DNA of 37,023 bases from an uncultured Lachnospiraceae bacterium (GTDB lineage Bacteria; Bacillota; Clostridia; Lachnospirales; Lachnospiraceae). A model generated the notes under the pieces. That model did no database searches, had not been told where the DNA came from, and saw only the letters and a program-made list of their open reading frames with translations. This document shows positions 2,425 through 29,865 of this stretch, in pieces. The translations under genes and the position numbers were made by a program. Position 1 is the first letter of the stretch, and each line of letters begins with the position of its first letter. Location: contig CAKNHF010000029.1 of assembly GCA_930972465.1 (NCBI GenBank), positions 1 through 37,023 on the forward strand. Direction: 5' to 3'.

Positions 2425-2473
2425 CCTTTCTGTCAGAAATTTCTGAAAATGCTGCTCAAAGGGGCCTGACCCC
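2425..2473 (-). repeat. Interspersed GGGGTCAGGCCCC repeat, locus 1 (single copy)
   Basis: Core GGGGCCTGACCCC at 2461-2473 with an arm on its left that contains the perfect 14-bp palindrome TCAGAAATTTCTGA (2433-2446). Read on the minus strand, core plus arm align base for base with the repeats at 16971 and 29798 (CCCCTTTG, three variable bases, then a CGTTTTCAGA-like block). Only one core is present here and the opposite arm is not complementary. It lies upstream of the pseudouridine synthase gene and of the sugar-transport promoter. Confidence 0.8.
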
Positions 2474-14071: not shown

Positions 14072-14122
14072 TCTGATAACAGTGTGCAAAGGGGTCAGGC
14101 CCCTTTGCACACTGTTATCAGA
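14072..14122 (+). repeat. Interspersed GGGGTCAGGCCCC repeat, locus 2 (long hairpin)
   Basis: A perfect 23-bp inverted repeat (14072-14094 with 14100-14122) around a TCAGG loop. It starts 9 nt after the tex stop and its outer arm supplies the stop codon of bioY on the other strand (14118-14120). The arms differ from those of the repeat at 26750 at matching positions on both sides (see findings). Confidence 0.92.
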
Positions 14123-14129
14123 TTTTTTT
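14072..14129 (+). terminator. Intrinsic terminator of tex formed by the repeat
   Basis: The 23-bp stem of the repeat is followed directly by seven T (14123-14129), a textbook intrinsic terminator for the plus-strand tex transcript. In the other direction no T-run follows, so it should not terminate bioY efficiently by itself. Confidence 0.9.
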
Positions 14130-14684
14130 GACTGTTGTCAGAAGTTTTGGTCCTATTATTGCCGCCGCGATTATTTTGAGGATATCTCCGGGAAGATAGG
14201 GGATGACGCCTGCGCTGAGTGCTGCGGAAAAGGAGAGACTCATCTGTCCGGCAAGCCATACTGTGCCGAAGGTGTAGCATACTGCAAGACCGATAATCAT
14301 TCCGAGGATGGAAGAGAGTCTTTGCCCGGGTATGTGTTCCATAAAGAAACCCTGGATCAGTGCGAGAAAGAGAAAACCAATGAGATATCCCCCGGTAGGG
14401 CCGGCAAGCTTTCCGAGTCCGCCGCTGAAACCGGAGAATACGGGCAGCCCGGCTGTGCCGAGACAGAGATATACAAGGACGCTGAGGGTTCCGGATTTCA
14501 TACCGAGAGTATAGACCGTGATGTATACTGCAAAGTTTGTGAGCGACAGAGGGACAGGGCTGACGGGGATGGGAATGGAAAAGGGTCCGAGGATACAGAG
14601 GACCGCTGTCATGAGTCCGATCAGTGTGAGATTCCGGGTTCTGTTATATGATGCTGATCCTCCGTTTGTGATTTCCTCTGACAT
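14118..14684 (-). CDS. bioY: Biotin transporter S-component BioY
   Basis: Substrate-binding membrane subunit of an energy-coupling-factor (ECF) biotin transporter. The 188 residues form about six membrane helices. Family features are the N-terminal block LTLIGLMTAVLCILGPFSIP, the PVPLSLTNFAVY segment, and the glycine-rich LAGPTGGYLIGF stretch. The upstream in-frame start at 14801 is rejected because it would include the promoter; ATG 14684 has GGAAGGAG 8 nt away. The ECF ATPases and EcfT are not here and must be encoded elsewhere. A BirA-like box over the -35 (14771-14801) suggests repression when biotin is plentiful. The stop codon lies inside the repeat-derived hairpin, so the last codons run through its T-tract. 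Confidence 0.93.
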   Translation of the reverse strand: MSEEITNGGSASYNRTRNLTLIGLMTAVLCILGPFSIPIPVSPVPLSLTNFAVYITVYTLGMKSGTLSVLVYLCLGTAGLPVFSGFSGGLGKLAGPTGGYLIGFLFLALIQGFFMEHIPGQRLSSILGMIIGLAVCYTFGTVWLAGQMSLSFSAALSAGVIPYLPGDILKIIAAAIIGPKLLTTVKKI

Positions 14685-14704
14685 ATTTGAATCTCCTTCC
14701 TGTG

Positions 14705-14736
14705 TTGCAAAATATTTTTCGAGAAGTATTTTGCAA
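14705..14736 (-). promoter_or_regulatory. Inverted repeat in the bioY leader
   Basis: A perfect 10-bp inverted repeat, TTGCAAAATA (14705-14714) and TATTTTGCAA (14727-14736), separated by 12 nt. It lies just downstream of the predicted transcription start and 4 nt upstream of the Shine-Dalgarno sequence, so it could be a protein site in DNA or a leader hairpin in RNA. Its sequence does not match the BirA box found further upstream. Confidence 0.6.
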
Positions 14737-14748
14737 TAATATGGAATC

Positions 14749-14777
14749 AGTATACGGTTATGAAAGTGAAATGTCAA
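14749..14777 (-). promoter_or_regulatory. bioY promoter
   Basis: On the minus strand a consensus -35 TTGACA (14777-14772) is followed after exactly 17 nt by -10 TATACT (14754-14749). The predicted start of transcription is near 14742, giving a leader of about 58 nt. Confidence 0.8.
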
Positions 14778-14801
14778 CCCGAAATATAAAATGGTTAACA
14801 A
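14771..14801 (-). promoter_or_regulatory. BirA-like biotin operator over the bioY -35 box
   Basis: Read on the minus strand: TTGTTAACC, 13 nt, GGTTGACAT. The first half matches the Firmicutes BirA half-site TTGTTAACC fully; the second matches GGTTAACAA at 7 of 9 positions, and its deviation creates the -35 hexamer TTGACA. Binding would block RNA polymerase directly. The assignment rests on motif plus the identity of the downstream gene. Confidence 0.72.
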
Positions 14802-14855
14802 TAAACGCCATCATATATTTTTCATAAAAAAGTTATAAATACTGTTTATCTGCCG

Positions 14856-14864
14856 TGTTATAAT
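14856..14864 (+). promoter_or_regulatory. Extended -10 promoter of the DUF5685-dnaJ operon
   Basis: TGTTATAAT (14856-14864) is an extended -10 element (TG, one base, TATAAT), 41 nt before the start codon. No good -35 is visible at the standard distance, as is normal for extended -10 promoters. It is divergent from the bioY promoter. Confidence 0.65.
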
Positions 14865-14904
14865 ATCACCACGATAAAATGTAATAAATTCTGGGAGATT
14901 GAAT

Positions 14905-15741
14905 ATGTTTGGATATGTTACCATTTGTGAACCGGAACTGAAGGTGAAGGATCTGAAAAAATACAAGGCATATTACTGCGGGCTTTGCCGTATTCTGAAA
15001 GAAGAGTATGGGTTTATGGGACAGATGACGCTGACGTACGATATGACATTTGCGGTTATTCTTCTGTCCTCTCTCTATGAGAGCCAGACCGAGACACAGA
15101 TGCACCGGTGCAAGGTTCATCCGGTAAAAAAACAGTACATGCTCACAAATGGGATTACGTCTTATGCAGCGGCAATGAATGTTCTCCTTGCATATTATCA
15201 TATGGAAGACGACTGGAACGATGAGCACAAGGTGAGCAGTCTTATGACGAAGAGCCTCATCCGCGGAAAGGCGGCAAGGATCACCGGGCAGTATCCCCGG
15301 CAGAGTGCGGCGATCCGGAAATGGCTCCGGGAACTTGCGGTTTGTGAAGAGGAAGAAAGCACAGATATTGATCGCACAGCGGGCTGCTTCGGACATCTCA
15401 TGGAAGAACTGTTTGTGTACCGGGAGGATATATGGGAAAAGAATCTGCGGCGCATGGGGTTCTTTCTGGGCAAATTTATTTACATTATGGACGCGTATGA
15501 GGATCTGCCCGAGGATCTTGAGAAAGGGAGGTACAATCCGCTGAAGAAAATTTACGGGCAGGAGAACTATGAAGAGAGGATGCAGCAGATTCTCTGCATG
15601 ATGATTGCAGAAAGCACGGCTGAGTTTGAACGTCTGCCGTGCCTTGTTGATGTGGACATTTTGAGAAATATATTGTATGATGGTGTCTGGAGTCGTTATA
15701 ATAAGATACAGATGAAGAAAAGCGAGGAACGAGGAAAATGA
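14905..15741 (+). CDS. DUF5685 family protein
   Basis: A 278-residue protein of unknown function, recognised by its N-terminus: MFGYV, then [16 protein letters not shown] with the CxxC pair C25/C28, and a third cysteine C69 in HRCKVHP. The rest is mainly helical, with the segment [13 protein letters not shown] and the end rich in basic residues. No signal peptide or clear membrane segment is seen. A TTG at 14899 would add two residues; ATG 14905 is preferred because GGGAG (14893-14897) is then 7 nt away. It overlaps the J-domain gene by 4 nt, so the two proteins are probably made together and may act together. The cysteines could bind metal; this is a guess. Confidence 0.8.
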
Positions 15742-16406
15742 CAAAAAATCCATATGACGTGCTCGGCGTATCGCCGAATGCGTCTGATGATGAGATAAAG
15801 AGAGCGTACCGTGATCTGACGAGAAAATATCATCCGGATGCCAATGTGAATAATCCTCTTGCGGATCTTGCAGAGGAAAAGTTCAAAGAAGTCCAGGAGG
15901 CTTATGACACGATCATGCGTGAACGCGCTTCCGGCGGGACAGGAGGACAGTCTTCCGGCTCGGGCAGTTATTCGTACGGCGGTTCGTCTTCGTATGGTTC
16001 GTCCGGAGGAACCTATGATAATATGCAGGCTGACCCGAGACTGCAGGCGGCCGCAAATTATATTAACAGCCGTCGTTACCGCGAGGCCCTGAACACGCTG
16101 GATCAGGTGCCGGAGCGTTCCGCGCTGTGGTATTACTTAAGCGGATGCGCCAACGCAGGAATCGGAAATAATATACTGGCCAGAGATCACGCGGCACAGG
16201 CTGTGAATATGGAGCCGAATAATATGCAGTACAGGCAGCTCCTGAATCAGCTTGATTTCAGCAGCAGAAGATATCAGGGCAGTCCATACGGCGGAGGCTA
16301 CGGGCCGGGCGGATCTTCCTGCGGAACCGGAAACATGTGCTGCGACCTCTGGATCGCGGACCAGCTCTGTGAATGTATGGGAGGAGATCTGTGTTCATGC
16401 ATGTAA
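15738..16406 (+). CDS. J-domain protein with cysteine-rich C-terminus
   Basis: A 222-residue co-chaperone-like protein. Residues 1-65 form a J domain with the HPD motif at 32-34, which in this family stimulates the ATPase of a DnaK-type Hsp70. A Gly/Ser/Tyr-rich linker (about 68-95) follows, then a helical region (about 100-170) resembling a pair of TPR-like repeats. The last 37 residues hold seven cysteines, including CC, CEC and CSC. It lacks the zinc-finger and substrate-binding domains of true DnaJ, so it is a specialised class C member, perhaps binding a metal or membrane partner by the tail. It overlaps the DUF5685 gene by 4 nt and the next gene by 10 nt. Confidence 0.88.
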
Positions 16407-16930
16407 AGGCAAAGACAATGGCATTCGGCGGTCTTCTGCTGGCTTTGACCGTCGTGTGCATGGCTCTTGGAAGTATTATTGAGACGAGTACATTATTCCT
16501 TCTGGCAGCGGCCTCTTTTTTTGTCGGGATCGTTATCCGCGAATTCGGGCTTAGAGTGGGCGCTGCGTTTTATATTGCGGCTGTTTTTCTTGGATTCATT
16601 ACAGCGCCGAACAAATTCTATGTACTTACATTCGCTGCCATGGGATTCTACATCTGGGCAGTCGAGGCTGTATTCCGATGGCTGGAAAAGCGTCCCGGGA
16701 CCGGGAATCGAAAAACAGCATTCTGGGTACTGAAATATGTAATCTTCAATATCATGTATATTCCGATCGTATTTATTTTCCGGGATATGCTTTTTTCCCG
16801 CTCGATATCAGGCGCCGTAATGATCGGCGTGCTGCTCGGTGGACAGATAGGCCTTTTTATCTACGATCAGGCATATGAGTACGTGCAGGCTCATATATGG
16901 GGAAAGATACGTGGACGGGTGATGCTATAA
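16397..16930 (+). CDS. Hypothetical multi-pass membrane protein
   Basis: A 177-residue hydrophobic protein that I do not recognise. About five or six membrane segments are visible (roughly residues 8-26, 30-46, 53-70, 75-94, 109-130 and 136-157), separated by short charged loops such as [10 protein letters not shown]; the C-terminus [11 protein letters not shown] is basic. An in-frame ATG at 16373 lies inside the J-domain gene. ATG 16397 is preferred because GGGAGGAG (16379-16386) is 10 nt upstream. It overlaps the J-domain gene by 10 nt, so it is the third gene of that operon. The size and topology resemble small S-component-like transport proteins, but no motif supports that. Confidence 0.72.
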
Positions 16931-16949
16931 ATGTGAAAAAAGTGTGAAC

Positions 16950-17011
16950 GGGGCCTGACCCTTTTGCAAAGGGGTCAGGCCCCTTTGAGTACCGTTTTCA
17001 GAAAATTCAGA
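16950..17011 (+). repeat. Interspersed GGGGTCAGGCCCC repeat, locus 3 (inverted doublet)
   Basis: Two cores in opposite orientation, GGGGCCTGACCC (16950-16961) and GGGTCAGGCCCC (16972-16983), 10 nt apart, with TTTGCAAA between them; they can form a 12-bp hairpin. The right arm (16980-17011) continues CCCCTTTG, variable AGT, ACCGTTTTCAGA, and aligns with the arms of the other loci. It follows the membrane-protein stop by 19 nt and has no T-run. Confidence 0.85.
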
Positions 17012-17211
17012 AAAAAGGAAAGAGCCACATTTCTGTGACTCAAAGGGGGAAAAAGTTTATGAAAAAGTGTTCTTTTTAAGAACAATTATAGTATAGAAAA
17101 GAGTTGTGTAAAAAGTGTGATCAAGTTTTGAATGGATTATGAACAAACAGATAAAAATATGTTAAGCGGATTCATATGTCTGGCCTGACAGTGGAAAATT
17201 ATGAAAAACTC
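17012..17211. other. Gene-free AT-rich stretch before the riboflavin locus
   Basis: No convincing coding frame. It contains a 7-bp inverted repeat with a 3-nt gap, TGTTCTT (17068-17074) and AAGAACA (17078-17084), and a small hairpin around 17022-17040 (GAGCCACA and TGTGACTC). The first could be a protein-binding site; nothing near identifies the regulator. Confidence 0.4.
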
Positions 17212-17240
17212 TTGAAATACTGCTTATAAAGAGTTATATT
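17212..17240 (+). promoter_or_regulatory. Promoter of the FMN riboswitch-ribU transcript
   Basis: TTGAAA (17212-17217), 17-nt spacer, TATATT (17235-17240). Transcription would start near 17247, about 16 nt before the riboswitch. Confidence 0.72.
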
Positions 17241-17262
17241 AATATACGGAAAAAGTAATAAA

Positions 17263-17384
17263 TCTTCGGGGTCGGGTGAAATTCCCAACCGGCGGTATAG
17301 TCCGCGACCCGCGCAAGCGGCTGAACCGGTGACTTTTTATATGGAGAATTCCGGTACCGACAGTAAAGTCTGGATGAGAGAAGA
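17263..17384 (+). ncRNA. FMN riboswitch (RFN element)
   Basis: Conserved RFN blocks are present in order: CTTCGGGG at the 5' end, GGGTGAAATTCCCAACCGGC (17273-17292), a central stem-loop arm, GAACCGGTGAC, CCGACAGT, and AAGTCTGGATGAGAGAAGA at the 3' end. The closing stem P1 pairs TCTTC (17263-17267) with GAAGA (17380-17384). It senses flavin mononucleotide. It precedes a terminator and the riboflavin transporter gene, so it is an OFF switch acting on transcription. Confidence 0.96.
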
Positions 17385-17436
17385 AATTCGCTTTTATTGA
17401 ATGGAAAATTCAATAAGAAATGTCATGAGAGCATAT

Positions 17437-17465
17437 GACCCCGAATCTGATGGTTCGGGGTTTTT
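17437..17465 (+). terminator. FMN-controlled intrinsic terminator
   Basis: ACCCCGAA (17438-17445) pairs with TTCGGGGT (17454-17461), 8-nt loop, followed by a T-run (17461-17465). The segment GACCCCGAA (17437-17445) is also the exact complement of TTCGGGGTC at 17265-17273 in the riboswitch, giving a 9-bp antiterminator. A separate 9-bp hairpin, TTATTGAAT (17394-17402) with ATTCAATAA (17408-17416), stands between. Confidence 0.9.
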
Positions 17466-17593
17466 CTATGTCCGCAATGACGGGATTTCCTGGAAGATTT
17501 CCTTTTTTCAGTTTATTGCCCGCGGATGCAGCGCGGGGATCATCAGCGCATTTGAATCAGAAAACATGCGTAAAGAAAAAGGAGAGATGGAAA

Positions 17594-18220
17594 ATGAGTA
17601 CAGAAACAAAAACAGCAGTTCATTCAGAACCCAGACTGGGCGTGAAGGCTCTCGTAAAGATCGGAATGCTCGCGGCGGTGGCGATCATACTGATGCTTTT
17701 TGAGATTCCCCTTCCGTTCGCACCGTCATTTTATGAGATTGATTTCAGTGAAGTCCCCGTTCTGGTGGGATGTTTTGCAATGGGACCGTTCGCGGGAGCT
17801 CTGATCGAGTTCGTGAAGATTCTTCTGAACTTCGTTGTCACAGGAACAGACACGGCAGGGGTAGGTGAAATCGCCAACTTTATTATCGGATGTTCACTCT
17901 GCGTTCCGGCTGGTCTGATCTACCGCAGGAACAGGACGAGAAAAAATGCGCTGATCGGTATGGCTGTCGGCACTGTGACAATGACGGTGATCGGATGCTT
18001 TATCAATGCGTTTGTGCTTCTCCCGACTTATGCCGTAGCTTTCGGCATGCCGATGGACGCGCTGGTAAGCATGGGAACAGCAGTGAACTCACATATTACA
18101 AATCTGTTTACATTCGTAATGTTTGCCGTTGCGCCGTTTAATCTTCTTAAGGGCGTGCTCGTGTCGGTTATCGTATTTCTTATATATAAGAAGATCAGTC
18201 CGGTGTTCAGAATGCACTGA
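17594..18220 (+). CDS. ribU: Riboflavin ECF transporter S-component RibU
   Basis: Membrane subunit that binds riboflavin for an energy-coupling-factor importer; the shared ATPases and EcfT are not in this window. The 208 residues form about six helices. Family marks are the block LLMFEIPLP-like IILMLFEIPLPFAPSF, DFSEVPVLVGCFAMGP, LIEFVKILLNFVVTGT and GEIANFIIG, which form the flavin-binding side. Frames that open earlier (17401, 17435) run over the terminator and are rejected; ATG 17594 follows AAGGAG (17579-17584). The FMN riboswitch and its terminator control expression, so flavin-replete cells should stop transcription before the gene. A terminator follows at 18262. Confidence 0.95.
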   Translation: MSTETKTAVHSEPRLGVKALVKIGMLAAVAIILMLFEIPLPFAPSFYEIDFSEVPVLVGCFAMGPFAGALIEFVKILLNFVVTGTDTAGVGEIANFIIGCSLCVPAGLIYRRNRTRKNALIGMAVGTVTMTVIGCFINAFVLLPTYAVAFGMPMDALVSMGTAVNSHITNLFTFVMFAVAPFNLLKGVLVSVIVFLIYKKISPVFRMH

Positions 18221-18261
18221 TATGACTGAAAAAGAGAAATATATTGAATGATTTCTATACA

Positions 18262-18291
18262 AAAAGCAGATTCCGGGCGGGATCTGCTTTT
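18262..18291 (+). terminator. Terminator after ribU
   Basis: AAAAGCAGAT (18262-18271) pairs perfectly with ATCTGCTTTT (18282-18291) around a 10-nt GC-rich loop, 41 nt after the stop. The A- and T-rich stem ends could serve both strands. Confidence 0.8.
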
Positions 18292-18339
18292 GTATTATAT
18301 AGTAAAAATTGGAGAATGAGAAAAACAGAAATAAAAAAG

Positions 18340-18368
18340 TTGACAAATTAAGAATTTTATAATAAAAT
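18340..18368 (+). promoter_or_regulatory. Promoter of the SleB-like hydrolase gene
   Basis: Consensus -35 TTGACA (18340-18345), 17-nt spacer, TAAAAT (18363-18368). It leaves a very AT-rich leader of about 100 nt with no coding frame. Confidence 0.75.
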
Positions 18369-18475
18369 AGCCTCCGTAACAAATTTGTAATATCTGTAAT
18401 AAAAACGAAAACAAATACATATATTTTAATTAGGATATATGTAAAGATATTGCAATAAGTTAAGAGGAGGAGTAT

Positions 18476-19135
18476 ATGAAACATTATAGAAACAGGCGGA
18501 TTCTCATGTCTTTATATGCCGCCGCGACGAGTATAACGGTCCTGACAGGCTTTACAAGTCTGGCCGCCGAAAGAGATACGGTCAGTGTGCGGCCGACGGT
18601 TTCGAAAGAGGAGACCGCGGAGTGGGGATTTTCCGATATTGCAGGGGAGATGCATGAAGAGATCCTTGATGACACAAGAACGGCCGCCGAAGAAGCGCAG
18701 CAGGCCTACATCAGAAAACAGGAAGAAGAAAGAAAAGCGGCCGAGGAAGCAGCGCGAATTGCGGCTGAGAAAGCGGCGGCCGAAGCTGCGGCAGAGGCAG
18801 CAGCCCAGGCGGACAAGGAGCTTCTTGCATCACTGATTTTCTGTGAGGCAGGCAATCAGCCCTATGAAGGACAGGTTGCTGTAGGAGCGGTTGTCATGAA
18901 CCGTGTAAAGAGCAGCTCCTATCCTGATACGATTTCAGATGTTATTTATCAGTCCGGACAGTTTACGCCGGCGATGACAGGATGGCTGGACTCCGTTCGG
19001 GCAAGCAGCGGATATACTGAATCTGCGATGCGGGCGGCGGAGGATGCCCTTGCAGGAAGCAATCCGGTCGGCGACTGCCTGTATTTCAGCACAGGCGGCT
19101 GGGGAATGCAGATCGGAGATCATTTCTTTCATTAA
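18476..19135 (+). CDS. Secreted cell wall hydrolase, SleB-like (Hydrolase_2)
   Basis: A 219-residue exported enzyme that should cleave peptidoglycan glycan strands. Residues 1-31 form a signal peptide (basic MKHYRNRR, hydrophobic core, cleavage expected near LAA). A Glu/Ala-rich coiled-coil-like spacer spans about 64-112. The SleB domain covers about 114-219, with FCEAGNQPYEGQVAVGAVVMNR, in which E124 is the expected catalytic acid, then QFTPAMTG and the terminal GDHFFH. The start is fixed by AGGAGGAG at 18465-18472. The charged spacer differs from the usual wall-binding PG-binding repeats of spore SleB. It stands alone between its own promoter and a hairpin. A germination role is not implied. 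Confidence 0.9.
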   Translation: MKHYRNRRILMSLYAAATSITVLTGFTSLAAERDTVSVRPTVSKEETAEWGFSDIAGEMHEEILDDTRTAAEEAQQAYIRKQEEERKAAEEAARIAAEKAAAEAAAEAAAQADKELLASLIFCEAGNQPYEGQVAVGAVVMNRVKSSSYPDTISDVIYQSGQFTPAMTGWLDSVRASSGYTESAMRAAEDALAGSNPVGDCLYFSTGGWGMQIGDHFFH

Positions 19136-19174
19136 TATAATATGAAATATAAAATCTTATATAGACAGCGGACA

Positions 19175-19216
19175 GAAGCTCCGGATAAGAACATGCAGGC
19201 TCTTATCAGGAGCTTC
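19175..19216 (+). terminator. Hairpin after the SleB-like gene
   Basis: GAAGCTCC (19175-19182) pairs with GGAGCTTC (19209-19216), and GATAAGA (19184-19190) with TCTTATC (19201-19207), a 15-bp stem with one mismatch and a 10-nt loop. Only TTC follows, so it is a weak terminator or a 3' stabiliser. Confidence 0.6.
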
Positions 19217-19287
19217 TTCGTATGATATACTGAGTGTATTGTGCTGAATATATTTCTGAAATTACTGTTTTTTGGAGGAAAATGGAA

Positions 19288-19857
19288 ATGAAGGTAAAAG
19301 TGAAAAAATATGGGACTCGTGATACAATCCCGGCTGTAAATATATGGAACCAGGTGGTTGAGGAGGGCATTGCATTTCCCCAGGAGGAAATGCTGACGGA
19401 AGAGACAGGGAGGACGTTTTTTGAGGAACAGTCTTTTACCGGGATCGCATACGAGGAAGAAACAGGTGAAATCGTGGGTCTGTATATCCTGCATCCCAAT
19501 AATATAGGAAGATGCGGGCATATATGTAATGCAAGCTATGCAGTAAGAAAAGATCTGCGTGGAAACCGGATCGGTGAGATTCTGGTCACACATTGTCTGA
19601 AGACGGCAAAGGAGATGGGATTTGGAATTATGCAGTTTAACGCGGTGGTGCGCAGTAATACCCATGCCCTCAGCCTGTATAAAAAACTTGGATTTGTGCA
19701 GCTCGGGATTATCCCCGGCGGATTCCGGATGAAGGACGGGCATTATGAGGATATCATTCCGCATTACTATGTTTTAACAGATGGGGGGAAGACTCACGTC
19801 TCTACAGGCGGTGAGGAACAAACATGTATCAGTGGCGGGTGTCAATCCTTCATCTGA
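19288..19857 (+). CDS. GNAT family N-acetyltransferase
   Basis: Transfers an acetyl group from acetyl-CoA to an amine; the acceptor is unknown. The 189 residues show the coenzyme A pyrophosphate-binding motif VRKDLRGNRIG (87-97) and the later N124-THALSLY-KKLGF block (124-135). The tail after about 165 (TDGGKTHVSTGGEEQTC) is low-complexity and probably not part of the fold. Starts at GTG 19234 and ATG 19282 are possible; ATG 19288 gives the best distance (9 nt) from GGAGG (19274-19278), while 19282 would be only 3 nt away. The gene is single and convergent with topB, from which it is separated by a 34-bp palindrome. Confidence 0.85.
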   Translation: MKVKVKKYGTRDTIPAVNIWNQVVEEGIAFPQEEMLTEETGRTFFEEQSFTGIAYEEETGEIVGLYILHPNNIGRCGHICNASYAVRKDLRGNRIGEILVTHCLKTAKEMGFGIMQFNAVVRSNTHALSLYKKLGFVQLGIIPGGFRMKDGHYEDIIPHYYVLTDGGKTHVSTGGEEQTCISGGCQSFI

Positions 19858-19886
19858 TAAACGCTCCGTAAGGGCGCTGAACGTCC

Positions 19887-19920
19887 GGTGCCGTGTACTT
19901 TGTACAAAGTACACGGCACC
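19887..19920. repeat. Perfect 34-bp palindrome between convergent genes
   Basis: Bases 19887-19903 (beginning GGTGCCGTGTAC) are the exact reverse complement of 19904-19920, with no spacer. It lies 30 nt past the GNAT stop and 12 nt past the topB stop. As RNA it would fold into a long hairpin on either strand, but no T-run follows on either side. It is unlike the GGGGTCAGGCCCC family in sequence. Confidence 0.9.
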
Positions 19921-19931
19921 CGTCAAATCCT

Positions 19932-22148
19932 TCACAATTTTATGTTCTTAAATGCATCCGCAAACGCAGTGTTGATCGGTTCGTTTGCCTCTTTTGCCTG
20001 CTTTTTCATATAATTGGAGACATCCCGTTTATTGACGCCGCGGCCTTCTTTCTCCCGGCGTTCCTGGAAAGCGGTGAGTTTTTCTTTATGGCCGCAGGAG
20101 CAGACAAATTTTTGTGCATCGCCCTTTCCGACCAGTTCCATCTTTTTGTGGCAGACCGGGCAGCGGGCATTGGTGCGCCGGGAGATAGTCTCCCGGTATC
20201 CGCATTCTCTGTCCTGGCAGACAAGCATCTTTCCGTGTTTTCCGTTGACTTCCAGCATGAATTTCCCACACTGGGGGCACTTGTGCCGGGTCAGATTATC
20301 GTGGCGGAAGGTGCCGGAGGCACTGCGGATTTCCTGGATCAGGGATCTGGTGTAATCCTCAATCTCGGACATGAATTTCCGGTCGGATTCCTTCCCCTTT
20401 GCGATCGCCTGGAGACGGAGTTCCCACTGGGCGGTCAGTTCAGGGCTTTTCAGATCAGCGGGGACAAGAGAGAGGAGCTGCCGTCCTTTGGAAGTGATAT
20501 GGATTTCATTCCCCTTCTTCTCCATAAGAAAACTGTTGAACAGTTTCTCAATGATATCCGCGCGGGTGGCGACTGTTCCGAGCCCTCCGGTCTCACCCAG
20601 TGTACGGACCAGTTTCTTATCTTTATGCTCCATATATTTTACCGGATTTTCCATTGCCGCGATGAGCGTGCCTTCTGTGAAATATGCCGGCGGTTTTGTC
20701 TTTCCTTCGGTGATATTCAAAGCGGTGACAGTCAGGTCAGTACCCTCTCGGATCTCGGGGAGAGCTGAGACGGACAGGCTTTGATCTGAGAAAAGACCGG
20801 AGGGATCGCCGGATCCGTCGTCCTCCTCCATATCCTGCCATCCGGCCTCGTATATTTCTTTCCACCCGGCTTTCCGGATCACATTTCCCTTTGCATGGAA
20901 CTGCTCCGTCCCCACAGTTCCCGTGACGGACGTCTCTTCGTACTCACAGGCCGGAGAGAGAACAGCGAGAAAACGGCGGACGACCAGGTCATAGATCTTT
21001 CTCTCGTCACTGCTCATATGTTCCAACTGAACATACTGCTCCGTGGGGATGATGGCGTGATGATCTGAAACTTTTGCATTGTCGACAAAAGATTTATTTG
21101 CCCGGATCTCCTGCATGGAGAGGCGGGCCGCCGCTTTTCTGTAAGGCCCCACGGCGCATGCTTTCAGCCGTTCCTTCAGCGTTCCCACCATGTCCGACGT
21201 GAGATACCGGGAATCTGTTCTGGGGTAAGTCAGGACTTTGTGGTTTTCATACAGCCGCTGCATGATGTTCAGGGTCATCTTTGCAGAGTAGCCGTATCTC
21301 TGATTTGCCTCCCGCTGGAGCGCTGTCAGGTCATAGAGAGCGGGAGAGAAGGTTTTCTTTGCTTTTTTCTTTACTTCTGTGACATGCAGTTTTTTTCCTG
21401 CGTTGCGGTAAATGGCATCGATCCTTTCCCGGTCAAAGGTGCGTCCGGAATTCGTTTTGCTGTCCGCCCAGGTAAATGTGATCTTTCCGGCGGAAGCCTT
21501 TAATCCGTAATAAGTCTGCGGCCTGAACTTCCGGATCTCCTCTTCCCGCGCCGCGATCATGGCGAGGGTCGGAGTCTGGACTCTGCCGCAGGAGAGCTGA
21601 GCATTGTACTTGCAGGTCAGCGCCCGGGTAGCATTGATGCCCACAACCCAGTCGGACTCAGCCCGGGCAACCGCCGCGTGATAAAGAATTTCATAATCCT
21701 TCCCCGGACGGAGATGGGCGAATCCCTCCCGGATTGCCTTGTCTGTGACCGAGGAGATCCACAGTCGTTTCAGAGGCTTCTGGTTCCCTGCCTTGTCAAG
21801 GATCCAGCGCGCGACGAGCTCCCCTTCTCTTCCGGCGTCAGTGGCGATGATAATGTCAGAGATATCCTTCCGGGAGATCTGTTCTTTTACTGCGTGATAC
21901 TGCTTTGAGGTCTGCTTGATGACGACCAGTTTCCAGTGCTTCGGCAGCATGGGAAGGGTATCCATGTTCCAGGTTTTATACTGCTCTCCGTATTGTTCCG
22001 GATCTGCAAGCGTCACCAGATGGCCCAGAGCCCAGGTGACGACATAGTCTTTTCCTTCCATGTATGAATTGGTTTTCTTTCCGCAGCCGAGAACACGTGC
22101 GATATCTCTTGCCACGGACGGTTTTTCCGCAATCACAAGATGCTTCAT
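19932..22148 (-). CDS. topB: DNA topoisomerase III
   Basis: Type IA topoisomerase that relaxes and decatenates DNA through a single-strand break. The 738 residues start MKHLVIAEKPSVARDIA with the TOPRIM domain; its acidic motif DAGREGE is at 104-110. The catalytic tyrosine is expected at Y308 in LTYPRTDSRYL. Near the C-terminus two cysteine clusters resemble topoisomerase zinc fingers (CPQCGK and CQDREC; CPVC and CSCG). A start 11 codons upstream is rejected because CAGGAGA (22164-22158) fits ATG 22148. Length is normal for chromosomal Firmicutes TopB. It lies 56 nt after the YitT-family gene on the same strand and is probably co-transcribed. The stop is beside the 34-bp palindrome. Confidence 0.95.
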   Translation of the reverse strand: MKHLVIAEKPSVARDIARVLGCGKKTNSYMEGKDYVVTWALGHLVTLADPEQYGEQYKTWNMDTLPMLPKHWKLVVIKQTSKQYHAVKEQISRKDISDIIIATDAGREGELVARWILDKAGNQKPLKRLWISSVTDKAIREGFAHLRPGKDYEILYHAAVARAESDWVVGINATRALTCKYNAQLSCGRVQTPTLAMIAAREEEIRKFRPQTYYGLKASAGKITFTWADSKTNSGRTFDRERIDAIYRNAGKKLHVTEVKKKAKKTFSPALYDLTALQREANQRYGYSAKMTLNIMQRLYENHKVLTYPRTDSRYLTSDMVGTLKERLKACAVGPYRKAAARLSMQEIRANKSFVDNAKVSDHHAIIPTEQYVQLEHMSSDERKIYDLVVRRFLAVLSPACEYEETSVTGTVGTEQFHAKGNVIRKAGWKEIYEAGWQDMEEDDGSGDPSGLFSDQSLSVSALPEIREGTDLTVTALNITEGKTKPPAYFTEGTLIAAMENPVKYMEHKDKKLVRTLGETGGLGTVATRADIIEKLFNSFLMEKKGNEIHITSKGRQLLSLVPADLKSPELTAQWELRLQAIAKGKESDRKFMSEIEDYTRSLIQEIRSASGTFRHDNLTRHKCPQCGKFMLEVNGKHGKMLVCQDRECGYRETISRRTNARCPVCHKKMELVGKGDAQKFVCSCGHKEKLTAFQERREKEGRGVNKRDVSNYMKKQAKEANEPINTAFADAFKNIKL

Positions 22149-22204
22149 AATGTAAAATCTCCTGTCTGTATAAATGTGCATTGAACTGATGGGCAGAGAG
22201 AACT

Positions 22205-23047
22205 CTAGACACTGTGGAATCCCTTGCCTATGATCTCACTTGTATTTGAGATCAGAATGAAAGCGTCAGGTTCGTTCTGCTTGATGAAATTTCTGAGCCG
22301 TACCGCCTGAACCCGGTTCAGAGCTGTCAGTATGATGTGCTTTTCTTTGCCGGAATAGGCGCCCCGCGCTTCAAATACACTGGCGCTGCGTACGAGTGTG
22401 TGTACGATAAAATCACAGATCGGTTCCGGGTGATTGCACACGACAGTGAAATATTTCGAAAGATTGAAACTCTCGATAAACGTATCCACCATGAAAGAGC
22501 GGATCGCAAGACCGAGCAGCGAGTAAAGACCGGTCTCCACGTCGAATACAAAGAAACTGAAAGCAGTTATAACGGCGTCGGTGACCAGCAGAGCGCGTCC
22601 GATGTCAAAGCTGGAATATTTTTTCAGGATCATGGCAATGATATCCGTGCCTCCGCTGGAAGATCCGATGTTGAACAGGATGGCGGAGCCCAGAGCCGGA
22701 AGCGCGATCGCAAAGCAGAGTTCCAGCATGGGCTGATCCGTGAGCGGCGCGTCAAGAGGCCAGATTCTTTCCATGACCGAGAGGGCGACGGAGAGAAGTA
22801 TGCTGCAGTAGGCGGTTTTGGCGGCAAAATTTTTCCCGAGGACAAAAAGACCTACCACCAGAAGAATCATGCTGGCGATAAGGTTGAAATCACTGGCGGA
22901 AATAAGGCCTGTTTTTGCCACAAGAACAGCCAGACCGGTAATGCCGCCGAAAGTAAAGTTATTTGTAAATTTGAAAAAGTACGTTCCGACTGCCATGATC
23001 AGCGTGCTGAAAGTAAGAAGCAGAAAATATTTTAATTTGCTTTTCAT
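22205..23047 (-). CDS. YitT family membrane protein (DUF161 plus DUF2179)
   Basis: A 280-residue protein with five or six membrane helices in the first 200 residues and a soluble C-terminal domain. Family marks include FTFGGITGLAVLV (about 31-43), NIGSSSGGTDIIAMIL (about 126-141) and the C-terminal DUF2179 segment (about 205-280) with the LTALNRVQAVRLRNFI helix. The function of the family is not firmly known; some members have been linked to small-molecule transport. The start follows GGGGGAGGG. It has its own promoter at 23085-23113 and is followed by topB after 56 nt. There is no evident functional link between the two. Confidence 0.9.
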   Translation of the reverse strand: MKSKLKYFLLLTFSTLIMAVGTYFFKFTNNFTFGGITGLAVLVAKTGLISASDFNLIASMILLVVGLFVLGKNFAAKTAYCSILLSVALSVMERIWPLDAPLTDQPMLELCFAIALPALGSAILFNIGSSSGGTDIIAMILKKYSSFDIGRALLVTDAVITAFSFFVFDVETGLYSLLGLAIRSFMVDTFIESFNLSKYFTVVCNHPEPICDFIVHTLVRSASVFEARGAYSGKEKHIILTALNRVQAVRLRNFIKQNEPDAFILISNTSEIIGKGFHSV

Positions 23048-23084
23048 CTGTTGTACCCTCCCCCCGATTTATATAGCTACAAAA

Positions 23085-23113
23085 ATTGTAATCTCTGGAA
23101 TATAAAAAGTCAA
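23085..23113 (-). promoter_or_regulatory. Promoter of the yitT-like/topB operon
   Basis: On the minus strand TTGACT (23113-23108), 17-nt spacer, TACAAT (23090-23085), about 37 nt upstream of the start codon. The enolase promoter in the opposite direction is not clear; no good hexamer pair was seen between 23115 and 23190. Confidence 0.7.
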
Positions 23114-23179
23114 CGCATTAACGGGAAGACGCCGGGAAATAATAAGTTACCAGTTACAGTCCGGTTCCTTACCGGCTGA

Positions 23180-24490
<1,311 letters not shown>

Positions 24491-24565
24491 AACGCAGAAA
24501 AGCAGGACAGAGCAGCGGCAATACGGATATAAAATCAGAGATAGAACAGTGCGGGAAAGCTCTTG

Positions 24566-24618
24566 TTGACAAAAGAAGATAAGTCCTGTACTATTGTATT
24601 AAATCTATAATACAATAG
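24566..24618 (+). promoter_or_regulatory. Promoter with large palindromic operator for the PH-domain operon
   Basis: TTGACA (24566-24571), 17-nt spacer, TACTAT (24589-24594). The -10 is overlapped by a perfect 11-bp inverted repeat, CTATTGTATTA (24591-24601) and TAATACAATAG (24608-24618), separated by 6 nt and also covering the transcription start. This geometry is that of a repressor site. GntR/YtrA-type regulators of Firmicutes bind similar AT-rich palindromes, but the regulator is not identified. The 24491-24560 stretch holds no gene. Confidence 0.8.
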
Positions 24619-24651
24619 CAGGGCTCTTTCTCTGCTGATCAGGAGGGCGTT

Positions 24652-25182
24652 ATGGGGAAAGAATATGAAGAGGATGGAAACGAAACAGGGAAAGTGAAGT
24701 ATGAGAAACTTTCAAAGCGTGCGCTCCATTGCATGTACATGGCCGGTATCATCGGAGGCATGGTCGTTTTCGCGGTCATCGGGGCGGTCAATGCATTCTG
24801 GCTGTTTCCGCAGGATATCACAGTGGGAAAATGGATCTCTCTGGCACTCGCAGTTCTGACGCTGCTGGATATTGTCGCCGGTCCTTACTTCCGGTATTAT
24901 CGATACCGATACAGTATCAATGATGAATGCATCGATATCATCGAAGGGTATCTGTTTGTAAAGCGGAGCATTGTACCTATTGAACGCATCCATAAACTGC
25001 AGACCGCAAAGGGGCCTTTTGACCAGATTTTTAAAGTGGCGAAAGTAATCGTGACGACAGGAGGAGGGGATGTCACCCTCTCATTTGTGGAAGAGGAAAA
25101 GGCGGAACAGATTGCGGAGAGTCTTCGCAGGAGGATCAATGAGATCGTGAAGGAGCAGAGGTCGGAAGATGGAAGAAAATAA
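24652..25182 (+). CDS. PH-domain membrane protein (YdbS-like)
   Basis: A 176-residue protein with two N-terminal membrane helices (about 27-52 and 60-80) followed by a bacterial PH domain (bPH2, about 85-165). The family pattern RYRYSINDECIDIIEGYLFVKRSIVPIERIH lies at the junction; within it, IVPIERIHKLQ is the characteristic stretch. It is always found with a larger YdbT-like partner, as here. The molecular function is not established; B. subtilis ydbS/ydbT have been connected with resistance to certain lantibiotic-like peptides. The start follows AGGAGG (24641-24646). It overlaps the next gene by 14 nt and is governed by the palindromic operator upstream. Confidence 0.82.
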   Translation: MGKEYEEDGNETGKVKYEKLSKRALHCMYMAGIIGGMVVFAVIGAVNAFWLFPQDITVGKWISLALAVLTLLDIVAGPYFRYYRYRYSINDECIDIIEGYLFVKRSIVPIERIHKLQTAKGPFDQIFKVAKVIVTTGGGDVTLSFVEEEKAEQIAESLRRRINEIVKEQRSEDGRK

Positions 25183-26737
25183 AAAGTTTCGGAATCATAT
25201 ATCTATCATTATAGAGCAGATCGGAGGGGGAATCGTTGCTCTGGCAGTTGTGGCGTTTTCGATCCTCGTGCAGAATGCAGAGGAACTGGCCGGCACGGAT
25301 TTTTCCTTCCTGCAGGGAAGAGCACTGTTTGTCTTGCTGATTGTGGCGGCGCTTCTTGCCGTCTCTGTAGGAAACCGTATTTTTGCCTGGGCGAATACCT
25401 ACATATATATAGAAGAGAATGCTGTCGTTATCGAACGGGGCAGGGTCAACAAAAAGAAAAATACGATCGGCATCCGAAACATTTCCAACATTAATATAGA
25501 GCAGAATCTGTTCGAGATGATTCTCGGCACCTGTAAAGTGAAGCTGGATACGAACAGCAGGACAACGGCGGACAGCACGGATGTGAAGATTGTTCTCAAG
25601 AAAGCGGATGCGGCTGCCTTTAAAAGACAGATCACCCGGAAGATGCAGGCGCAGATGCAGGCAGAGAAAACGGCAGAAATTGAGGACACGGGTTTGCGGG
25701 CAGAAACATCTGGAACGTTTGAACGGAGGGAAGATTTTGCATACTGTCCGGGTCCTGCTGTATGGGATGAGGAAGACAATGAAGAATTTGATATCAGAGC
25801 AGAGATTGGAGATGTCTTCCGTCACGGGCTTTTTTCTGTTAATATTTTCTCTCTGCTGATTCTGGTGGGTGCCGCTGTGGGAACAGTGACGACCGTACTC
25901 CGGATGCTGGAACAGCCGGAACTGATGAGCTCGCTCCTTGGAGCTGCGGCAGGGATTATTGTGGCGGCGGGGATTGTGCTGTCTGCACTGTGGGATACTG
26001 TGAAAGATTTTATCCGTTATTATGATTTCCGGGCAAAACGCCGCGGCGATAAGATCTATATTAAATACGGATTTCTGAAGAAGATGGAATATACGATTCC
26101 TGTGGATAAGATTCAGGCGCTCAAAATACGGCAGTCTTTTGTGGCCAGAATATTCCGAAAATATATGGCAGAGATTGTGAATGTGGGAATGGGAGATGAG
26201 AAGGAGGAGCAGAATTCTTTTCTGATTCTATATACCACAGAGAAGAAGCTGAAGGAACAGCTTGAACTTCTGCTGCCGGAATTTGCAGGGACCGCAGAAC
26301 AGAAAGTAGCCCGTCTTCCGGCGTCCGTGTGGGCGGCGTGGGCTGTTCCGGGTGTGATATACTCAGCTCTGGTTTGTGCATCGGCGGCAGTATGCACAGC
26401 GGTTATGGGGGAGCACGAGCTTCTTATCTGGCTGAGCGCGGCCGGGCTGATTCTTCTCCTTCTGATCTGTATGGCACTTAAGTACGTGACAGACGGTACC
26501 GGAACCGACGGAACATTCCTGAAACTCTGTCACGGATATTTTGGGAAAAATTACATTTCCATACGATATCAGAATATTCAGTATATGGAAATAAAACAGA
26601 ACTTTATTGCCAGGGCGTTTGATATCCGGAAAGGCGAGATACACCTGCTGGCATCCTCTGCAAATTCGGCTCATGACATTCCCTACTTTAAGGGCAGAGC
26701 AGATCAGCAGATAAGAAGAGGGATGCTGAAACGGTGA
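25169..26737 (+). CDS. Triple PH-domain membrane protein (YdbT-like)
   Basis: A 522-residue protein built from repeated units of a pair of membrane helices plus a PH domain. Helix pairs are visible at about 15-35/50-75, 225-245/255-275 and 385-405/415-435, each followed by a PH-type segment: NTIGIRNISNINIEQNL in the first, YTIPVDKIQALKIRQSF in the second, ISIRYQNIQYMEIKQNF in the third. This is the YdbT arrangement and length. A linker rich in Glu (about 170-215) separates the first two units. The start at 25169 overlaps the YdbS-like gene by 14 nt. Function is unknown beyond membrane localisation. The repeat at 26750 follows 12 nt after the stop. Confidence 0.82.
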   Translation: MEENKKFRNHISIIIEQIGGGIVALAVVAFSILVQNAEELAGTDFSFLQGRALFVLLIVAALLAVSVGNRIFAWANTYIYIEENAVVIERGRVNKKKNTIGIRNISNINIEQNLFEMILGTCKVKLDTNSRTTADSTDVKIVLKKADAAAFKRQITRKMQAQMQAEKTAEIEDTGLRAETSGTFERREDFAYCPGPAVWDEEDNEEFDIRAEIGDVFRHGLFSVNIFSLLILVGAAVGTVTTVLRMLEQPELMSSLLGAAAGIIVAAGIVLSALWDTVKDFIRYYDFRAKRRGDKIYIKYGFLKKMEYTIPVDKIQALKIRQSFVARIFRKYMAEIVNVGMGDEKEEQNSFLILYTTEKKLKEQLELLLPEFAGTAEQKVARLPASVWAAWAVPGVIYSALVCASAAVCTAVMGEHELLIWLSAAGLILLLLICMALKYVTDGTGTDGTFLKLCHGYFGKNYISIRYQNIQYMEIKQNFIARAFDIRKGEIHLLASSANSAHDIPYFKGRADQQIRRGMLKR

Positions 26738-26749
26738 ATTGACAGATAA

Positions 26750-26802
26750 GTCAGAAAACGGTGAGCAAGGGGGTCAGGCCCCTTTGCTCACCGTTTTCTG
26801 AC
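26750..26802 (+). repeat. Interspersed GGGGTCAGGCCCC repeat, locus 4 (long hairpin)
   Basis: The left arm (26750-26773) and right arm (26779-26802) form a 24-bp stem with one G-T pair (26769 with 26783) around the loop TCAGG. It begins 12 nt after the YdbT-like stop. Only a short ATCTTTT follows, so it may terminate weakly. Arm differences from the 14072 element are matched on both sides. Confidence 0.92.
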
Positions 26803-29797: not shown

Positions 29798-29865
29798 GGG
29801 GTCAGGCCCCTTTGCATACCGTATTCAGAATATTCTGAATATGCTTGACAAAGGGGCCTGACCCC
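29798..29865 (+). repeat. Interspersed GGGGTCAGGCCCC repeat, locus 5 (inverted doublet, REPIN-like)
   Basis: Cores GGGGTCAGGCCCC (29798-29810) and GGGGCCTGACCCC (29853-29865) are exact reverse complements of each other, 42 nt apart. The middle holds a perfect 20-bp palindrome, TATTCAGAATATTCTGAATA (29822-29841). The whole could fold as one long hairpin or as three small ones. It lies between the M16C stop and era, with the first core 2 nt after the stop. Confidence 0.9.

Follow-up and report, generated by a model that had tools for sequence, protein, structure and literature searches.

The stretch of DNA analysed here (hereafter the window) covers positions 1 to 37,023 of contig CAKNHF010000029.1 (assembly GCA_930972465.1; 37,023 nucleotides, forward strand) from an uncultured Lachnospiraceae bacterium, the genus of which was judged to be Mediterraneibacter. 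It contains two near-perfect palindromes able to fold into long hairpins, both built around the same 13-nt core, GGGGTCAGGCCCC, which is repeated elsewhere in the source genome assembly (G000; 2.81 Mb, 64 contigs, 86% complete). The matched changes between the arms of these palindromes, and the way in which such matches may come about, are the subject of this report. The two elements are as follows.

14072..14122, 51 nt, unstranded: copy 1, a palindrome of the form tail'-core-tail lying where the convergent Tex-like and BioY-like genes meet
14091..14103, plus strand: core GGGGTCAGGCCCC of copy 1, an exact match to the genome-wide core
26750..26802, 53 nt, unstranded: palindromic copy 2, between codirectional genes
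26770..26782, plus strand: core GGGGTCAGGCCCC of copy 2, an exact match to the genome-wide core

Both elements, common core included, are as a first-pass annotation of the window had described them, and a script run on the window reproduced exactly the five differences reported between their 23-base arms (positions 3, 6, 10, 14 and 19, counted from the outside). The arm pairs of copy 1 and copy 2 at these positions are T-A/A-T, T-A/A-T, A-T/G-C, T-A/A-T and A-T/G-T, which means that four changes are matched in the opposite arm and the fifth gives a G-T pair, again in agreement with the annotation. The near-perfect hairpins comprise 24 pairs in copy 1 and 25 in copy 2, with fold energies of -42.7 and -46.2 kcal/mol, compared with shuffle means of -12.3 and -14.5. 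On the plus strand a T-run comes directly after the copy 1 hairpin, and the stretch 14075-14119 is called terminator-like; the T-run after the GC-rich hairpin of copy 2 is weak. A scan of Rfam at the gathering threshold gave no match at either element.

The core is present in 59 exact copies in G000, against one for a reversed control pattern, and occurs in both orientations (27 one way, 32 the other). Within the window, seven matches with up to two mismatches were found where 0.51 are expected. The usual copy consists of a small hairpin core, GGGG-TCAGG-CCCC, and ONE conserved tail of about 21-25 nt, NNTG-NNN-CACCGTTTTCAGAATATTC, the other flank being unique. Read outward from the core, the right side begins with NNTG and a variable triplet, and continues with CACCGTTTTCAGAATATTC or with a second type carrying TCAAATTATCTGACAATTC; the tail scores of the G000 copies split into two groups. 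By a crude count of open reading frames (ORFs), the neighbouring genes are codirectional for 30 of the 59 exact copies, convergent for 14 and divergent for four, and 11 copies lie inside an ORF of at least 60 codons, this last figure being unreliable.

For the comparison of arms, 62 G000 copies whose core has no more than one mismatch were fetched, and eight were removed whose left arm holds another core. Of the 54 copies analysed, 17 still have a neighbouring core no further than 70 nt away, and 37 stand alone. A tail is found on one side only in 31 copies, seven of them within tail-to-tail pairs, and in several one-tailed copies the tail-less flank runs at once into a stop codon or a ribosome-binding site. 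In one-tailed copies the variable triplet showed no guide-like complementarity to the target flank at any of 12 offsets (lowest p 0.22). Near-perfect palindromes, defined by at least 21 matched positions out of 25 in the arms, number seven among the 54 copies, both hairpins of the window included; all seven stand alone (7/37), and none of the other 30 lone copies reaches 21/25. The sites of the seven in G000 are 14091, 26770, 56149, 34884, 18072, 21713 and 70719. Paired copies are arranged head-to-head (core'-TTTGCAAA-core) or tail-to-tail, the core starts of the latter being separated by 55 nt in four pairs and 47 nt in one. One tail-to-tail pair, at C1:77501-77568 of G000 (in L082 and L083), has the same core variant, GGGGACAGGCCCC, in both halves; this would be expected if one half had been copied from the other, and pairing between the halves would also explain it.

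Matched arm changes in the palindromes exceed chance. Along a 24-pair stem of the seven palindromes, 97.0% of cells are standard pairs, compared with 83.3% when the 3' letters are shuffled and 36-50% when the partner is slid by one to three columns. Ten of the 24 pairs have changed on both sides, and permutation of the arms among the palindromes gave p = 0.0002 for positions 5-25. Matches within a copy outnumber those between copies at positions 5-7 (19/21 versus 11.1) and 8-20 (89/91 versus 71.0), with no within-copy excess at positions 1-4 (21/28 versus 21.0) and a value not far above the between-copy level at positions 21-25 (26/35 versus 23.4). Just four mismatches, two of them G-T, occur in the 112 cells of positions 5-20, too few for an excess of wobble pairs to serve as a sign of selection.

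The first-pass annotation had concluded from the compensated changes that structure, not sequence, is conserved between copies. This conclusion does not extend to the family. At positions 5-20 the arms are paired in 98% of cells in the seven palindromes (110/112) but in only 37% in the other 30 lone copies (179/480), as also in all 47 non-palindromic copies analysed, and a long hairpin is therefore not what the family conserves. What is conserved across copies is the core sequence together with one tail; matched arms are a minority state. Among relatives, 78 units were available from fetched stretches of genomes G041, G042, G056 and G064 (partial copy sets for the last three), and four of them reach 21/25, L152 doing so only via both arms entering core-like sequence. 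A comparison of copies across the genome, which the annotation had proposed as a check, supports covariation within the seven palindromes, but in the 31 one-tailed copies the tail showed no association with the flank across the core, either at positions 5-7 (23/93 matches, 20.0 expected, p 0.23) or at positions 8-20 (103/403 matches, 105.6 expected).

Matching also extends over uninterrupted runs. The run test covered 30 units with two tails, out of a total of 119; ten G064 loci had been dropped as orthologues of G042 loci, and arms that contain another core were excluded. Matched runs of at least 6 nt outward from position 5 are present in nine of the 30 units, against 1.55 expected (p 0.0002). 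An earlier and stricter tail motif, which missed tails like CGTCTGA, gave 18 double-tail units before it was relaxed, and the long-run excess has p 0.0002-0.0004 under both versions. At C2:101776, L133, L141:475 and L144:468 the matched arm block begins at the core and ends where the outer tails diverge.

Ten orthologous locus pairs of G042 and G064, two related species, were compared in alignments that are 89-95% identical. At L115/L154 (422-480 in each) the inverted cores enclose a 33-nt spacer that lies in opposite orientations in the two species, agreeing at 32/33 positions as the reverse complement versus 22/33 directly. At L129/L169 the core is flipped and the core-proximal stretches are altered on both sides, with the outer tails kept. 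This spacer inversion and this core flip are the flips seen among the ten pairs; arm homogenisation is suggested by the within-copy matching. An 8-nt spacer shows a symmetric double change at L134/L165 (TGTTAACA versus TCTTAAGA), where the loci also differ by a 14-nt duplication. A quasi-palindromic spacer state, TCTTAACA/TGTTAAGA, occurs at L124/L172 and L125/L171. Changes in the arms are for the most part confined to one side. Uncompensated arm changes are found at L117/L156, L121/L157 and L125/L171, a single arm change at L124/L172 and small one-sided changes at L134/L166; no changes were found in the core-proximal arms of L122/L158 and L127/L164. The spacer inversion, the core flip and the symmetric spacer change would all fit hairpin-templated copying.

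At two of the three G000 palindrome sites compared with relatives, the element is missing there. No core-like sequence (up to two mismatches) was found at the 26770 site in any of the 11 relatives' loci examined, one of which, L184, is cut short. The flank TTTTAAA is retained in several of them, e.g. L180, L181 and L185, so that the intergenic stretch around the 53-nt palindrome can still be recognised. The palindrome at 56149 is absent from all five relatives searched. The 14091 site (window 14072-14200; orthologues L187-L193) is occupied by different elements in five relatives, namely head-to-head cores AAAAGGGTCAGGCCC...GGGRCCTGACCCTTTT in three and variants in two, and a second palindrome, GGTGCCGTGTAC or a near form of it, is also present in three; no core was found there in two more distant genomes. 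This Tex-like/BioY-like intergenic site looks repeatedly rewritten. Other elements (AAAGGGACAGGCCC/AAAGGGTCAGGCCC) are likewise seen in G066 and G055 (L206, L210, L212) at a gene end, C1:60072, that carries a tail-to-tail pair in G000.

A possible agent of dispersal was sought with NF047646, the model for transposases of the REP (repetitive extragenic palindrome)-associated tyrosine type (RAYT), in 58 genomes of the genus (E <= 0.001). Thirty RAYT loci (L085-L114) were examined over up to 1.5 kb on each side. Repeats of the GGGGTCAG type, with like tail motifs, adjoin the RAYT gene in five of them: L103 and L107 have them on both sides, L087 and L096 at the 3' end of the gene, and L105 on one side. 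A further repeat of this type lies about 0.6 kb past the RAYT start in L087, beyond another ORF. The RAYT gene adjoins what we take to be a transketolase-like gene in L103, L104 and L107, and one ORF separates the two in L087 and L096. In G065, which holds 37 repeats, the contig breaks off just where a RAYT would be expected to begin, a GTGAAC-GGGGTCTGACCCC-GTTCAC repeat preceding this point; G056, with six repeats, has the transketolase-like gene and no RAYT nearby. At least 19 exact copies of GGGGTCAGACCCC are present in six of the 58 genomes, of which five have RAYT matches and the sixth is G065. The presence of a RAYT alone does not predict GGGGTCAG-type repeats, since other RAYTs adjoin GGTGCCGTGTAC palindromes. 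Repeats at L104:1000-1180, L094:973 and L102:2276 have a tail in common with the downstream repeat of L103/L107 (GTCGAA..TCTGACAA..CTGAT) and differ from it in their cores (GGTGCCGTGTAC versus GGGGTCTGACCCC). In RAYT-flanking repeats, then, the tail is conserved and the core exchangeable.

The RAYT proteins of relatives are 252-262 amino acids long and have a conserved C-terminal extension. Pfam recognised Y1_Tnp and one sub-threshold DUF in them and detected no C-terminal helix-turn-helix (HTH); the best solved structure for the RAYT profile is TnpA-REP 4er8 (E 0.00095). A PF01797 gene of G000 (C10:57841) was first taken as a RAYT and then dropped, its translation being presumably that of an ordinary IS200/IS605-type TnpA. 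The suggestion in the first-pass annotation that the hairpins point to function or mobility is accordingly sustained in so far as palindromes of a mobile type are linked in relatives to an HUH/tyrosine (RAYT-type) gene, and not as regards conservation of a long hairpin.

We consider it reasonably probable that the elements are RAYT-type short palindromic repeats whose matched arms result from arm-to-arm copying, with covariation a mutational by-product and not the outcome of structural selection. The spread of the repeats would be due to a RAYT, the gene for which is not in the incomplete G000 assembly. Perfect palindromes would arise when one arm is copied from the other, whether by template switching or by synthesis that a hairpin primes at the core. 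Spacers or loops flanked by inverted repeats would flip. A change in one arm would be written at once into the other arm, and for this reason covariation would be no proof of selection. Homogenisation and inversion by template switching, and compensatory changes produced in the same way, are described in the excerpts of two publications (PMC8604942; PMC8794818), and on that ground, together with the sequence comparisons, we infer that hairpin-templated copying is to be favoured over serial compensatory substitution.

Several observations weigh against this account. The core-adjoining pair is G-T in four of the seven palindromes, and in three the second pair out from the core is a T-T mismatch; simple fold-back copying would have made both match. 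In a formal test of the block structure, identity past the first arm mismatch is 130/192 = 0.68 versus a baseline of 0.60, with no clear drop to the between-copy level (13/17 in units with runs of at least 3). No before/after pair, from single-tail copy to G000 palindrome, was found at the 14091, 26770 and 56149 sites. The symmetric change at L134/L165 fits compensatory selection equally well, and recombination or mis-assembly could also account for inversions where the inverted repeats are about 25 bp long. The RAYT association has its own difficulties: NF047646 matches occur in 45/58 genomes with only three above the curated cut-off, 25 of the 30 RAYT loci have no GGGGTCAG-type repeat within the distance examined, and the same search found no RAYT gene in the 86% complete G000 assembly. 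There the RAYT locus is probably unassembled, an indirect conclusion drawn from the absence of the transketolase-like gene from the assembly (best match 36% identity).

Selection for a long hairpin, acting as an RNA terminator or processing signal or as a single-stranded DNA substrate of a transposase, could instead maintain pairing through compensatory substitutions. We regard this as unlikely, even though double-sided changes at 10/24 pairs, 97% paired cells in the seven palindromes, the pairing-keeping symmetric change at the orthologous site L134/L165 and the location of copy 1 between convergent genes, with a T-run after it, would all be expected; the arms are unpaired in 30/37 lone copies, only 4/78 units of relatives reach 21/25 matched positions, and the arm changes at L117/L156, L121/L157 and L125/L171 went uncompensated. 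That the elements are simply intrinsic terminators of common ancestry is very improbable: the terminator-like call at 14075-14119 and the 14/59 copies between convergent genes would agree with it, but the T-run of copy 2 is weak and its flanking genes are codirectional, and it accounts neither for the long conserved tail on one side nor for the BIME-like pairs or the link to RAYT genes; the anatomy of the repeats disfavours it.

It is also conceivable, if rather improbable, that the palindrome is itself an active mobile unit, made and spread by a RAYT through hairpin transfer in a parvovirus-like manner: a nick would be followed by self-primed extension and then by re-integration, every round restoring perfect arms and turning the core round. 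The palindromes at 26770 and 56149 are absent in relatives and may thus have arrived whole as units, core and spacer flips do occur, and relatives encode an HUH/tyrosine transposase. Most copies are, however, single-tailed, no intermediates were seen, and the flips are explained by template switching without a dedicated enzyme. In a related and quite doubtful scheme, a RAYT-type HUH nuclease would nick the tail, and the core would fold back and prime synthesis, each round rewriting one arm and flipping the core. If this were true, palindromes would be replicated by a domesticated bacterial transposase in much the way that parvoviruses copy their ends.

Under the preferred reading, arm-to-arm copying, these observations bear on the use of covariation in general. 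A functional RNA structure is as a rule argued from compensatory changes, and the palindromic copies, taken by themselves, show strong covariation. The restriction of family-wide pairing to a minority of copies, together with flips at orthologous sites of the sort that template switching would produce, calls for caution in covariation screens of repeat-rich genomes. The elements described here represent a GGGGWSAS/RAYT repeat family in Mediterraneibacter, on which ideas about the origin of REP-type palindromes can be tested. The window holds further repeats.

2436..2473, minus strand: single-tail copy, core at 2461-2473 and tail TTTGAGCAGCATTTTCAGAAATTTC
16950..17008, plus strand: head-to-head pair, core' (one mismatch) at 16950-16962, spacer TTTGCAAA at 16963-16970, core at 16971-16983 and tail to about 17008
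29798..29865, 68 nt, unstranded: tail-to-tail pair core-tail-tail'-core', core starts 55 nt apart
19887..19920, unstranded: second palindrome family GGTGCCGTGTACTTTGT/ACAAAGTACACGGCACC, a perfect 17-bp palindrome

The single-tail copy lacks a long-arm hairpin (RNA fold of 2433-2473 on the minus strand: -11.3 kcal/mol, z -0.57). The palindrome at 19887-19920 is identical to one that adjoins the RAYT gene in relatives G066, G055 and G045. Separately, an FMN riboswitch (RF00050, 99.3 bits) lies at 17258-17389 and is the sole Rfam match at the gathering threshold in the window.

Among the matches listed in searches of the open-licence literature, which is not proof of absence, no relevant paper was found for core-like strings (the matches being to AAAGGGGTCAG only) or on RAYT in Lachnospiraceae; nor was one found, with the same caveat, that joins template switching and extragenic palindromes. 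The closest likenesses are to known systems of three kinds. According to published work, template switching between inverted repeats homogenises arms and inverts spacers (PMC8604942) and yields compensatory changes in RNA stems (PMC8794818); as far as the excerpts of these papers go, quasipalindrome correction and template switching resemble the present case in arm homogenisation, loop or spacer inversion and apparent compensatory changes, and differ from it in that a bacterial mobile repeat family is involved here and the comparison is at species level only. GTAG-type REP, BIME and REPIN elements share with the present repeats the short multicopy palindromes, the head-to-head and tail-to-tail pairs and a RAYT nearby in some relatives. 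Unlike GTAG-type REPs, the repeats have no GTAG (or CGTC) tag, the hairpin foot being mostly CANN/NNTG.

The excerpts on TIRYT genes provide the nearest parallel. GGGGWSAS is given there as the motif of the flanking repeats (PMC3733652), which are partly self-complementary and form dimers or clusters (PMC3733652; PMC6006769), and a C-terminal HTH is listed as a feature of subclass 2.1 HUH proteins (PMC6006769). In the present family, similarly, the start of the core, GGGGTCAG, fits GGGGWSAS (59 exact copies), the repeats are self-complementary and occur as single units, pairs and clusters, and they flank a RAYT-like gene in some relatives, none having been found in G000; the relatives' transposase has a C-terminal extension in which Pfam finds no HTH. 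In contrast to TIRYTs/TIRtrons as described in those excerpts, the family has a conserved one-sided tail, exchangeable cores (GGGGTCTGACCCC versus GGTGCCGTGTAC) and a Lachnospiraceae host. We therefore file the elements as a further family of a known kind of repeat, GGGGWSAS/TIRYT (REP/BIME-like), with an instructive mutational history.

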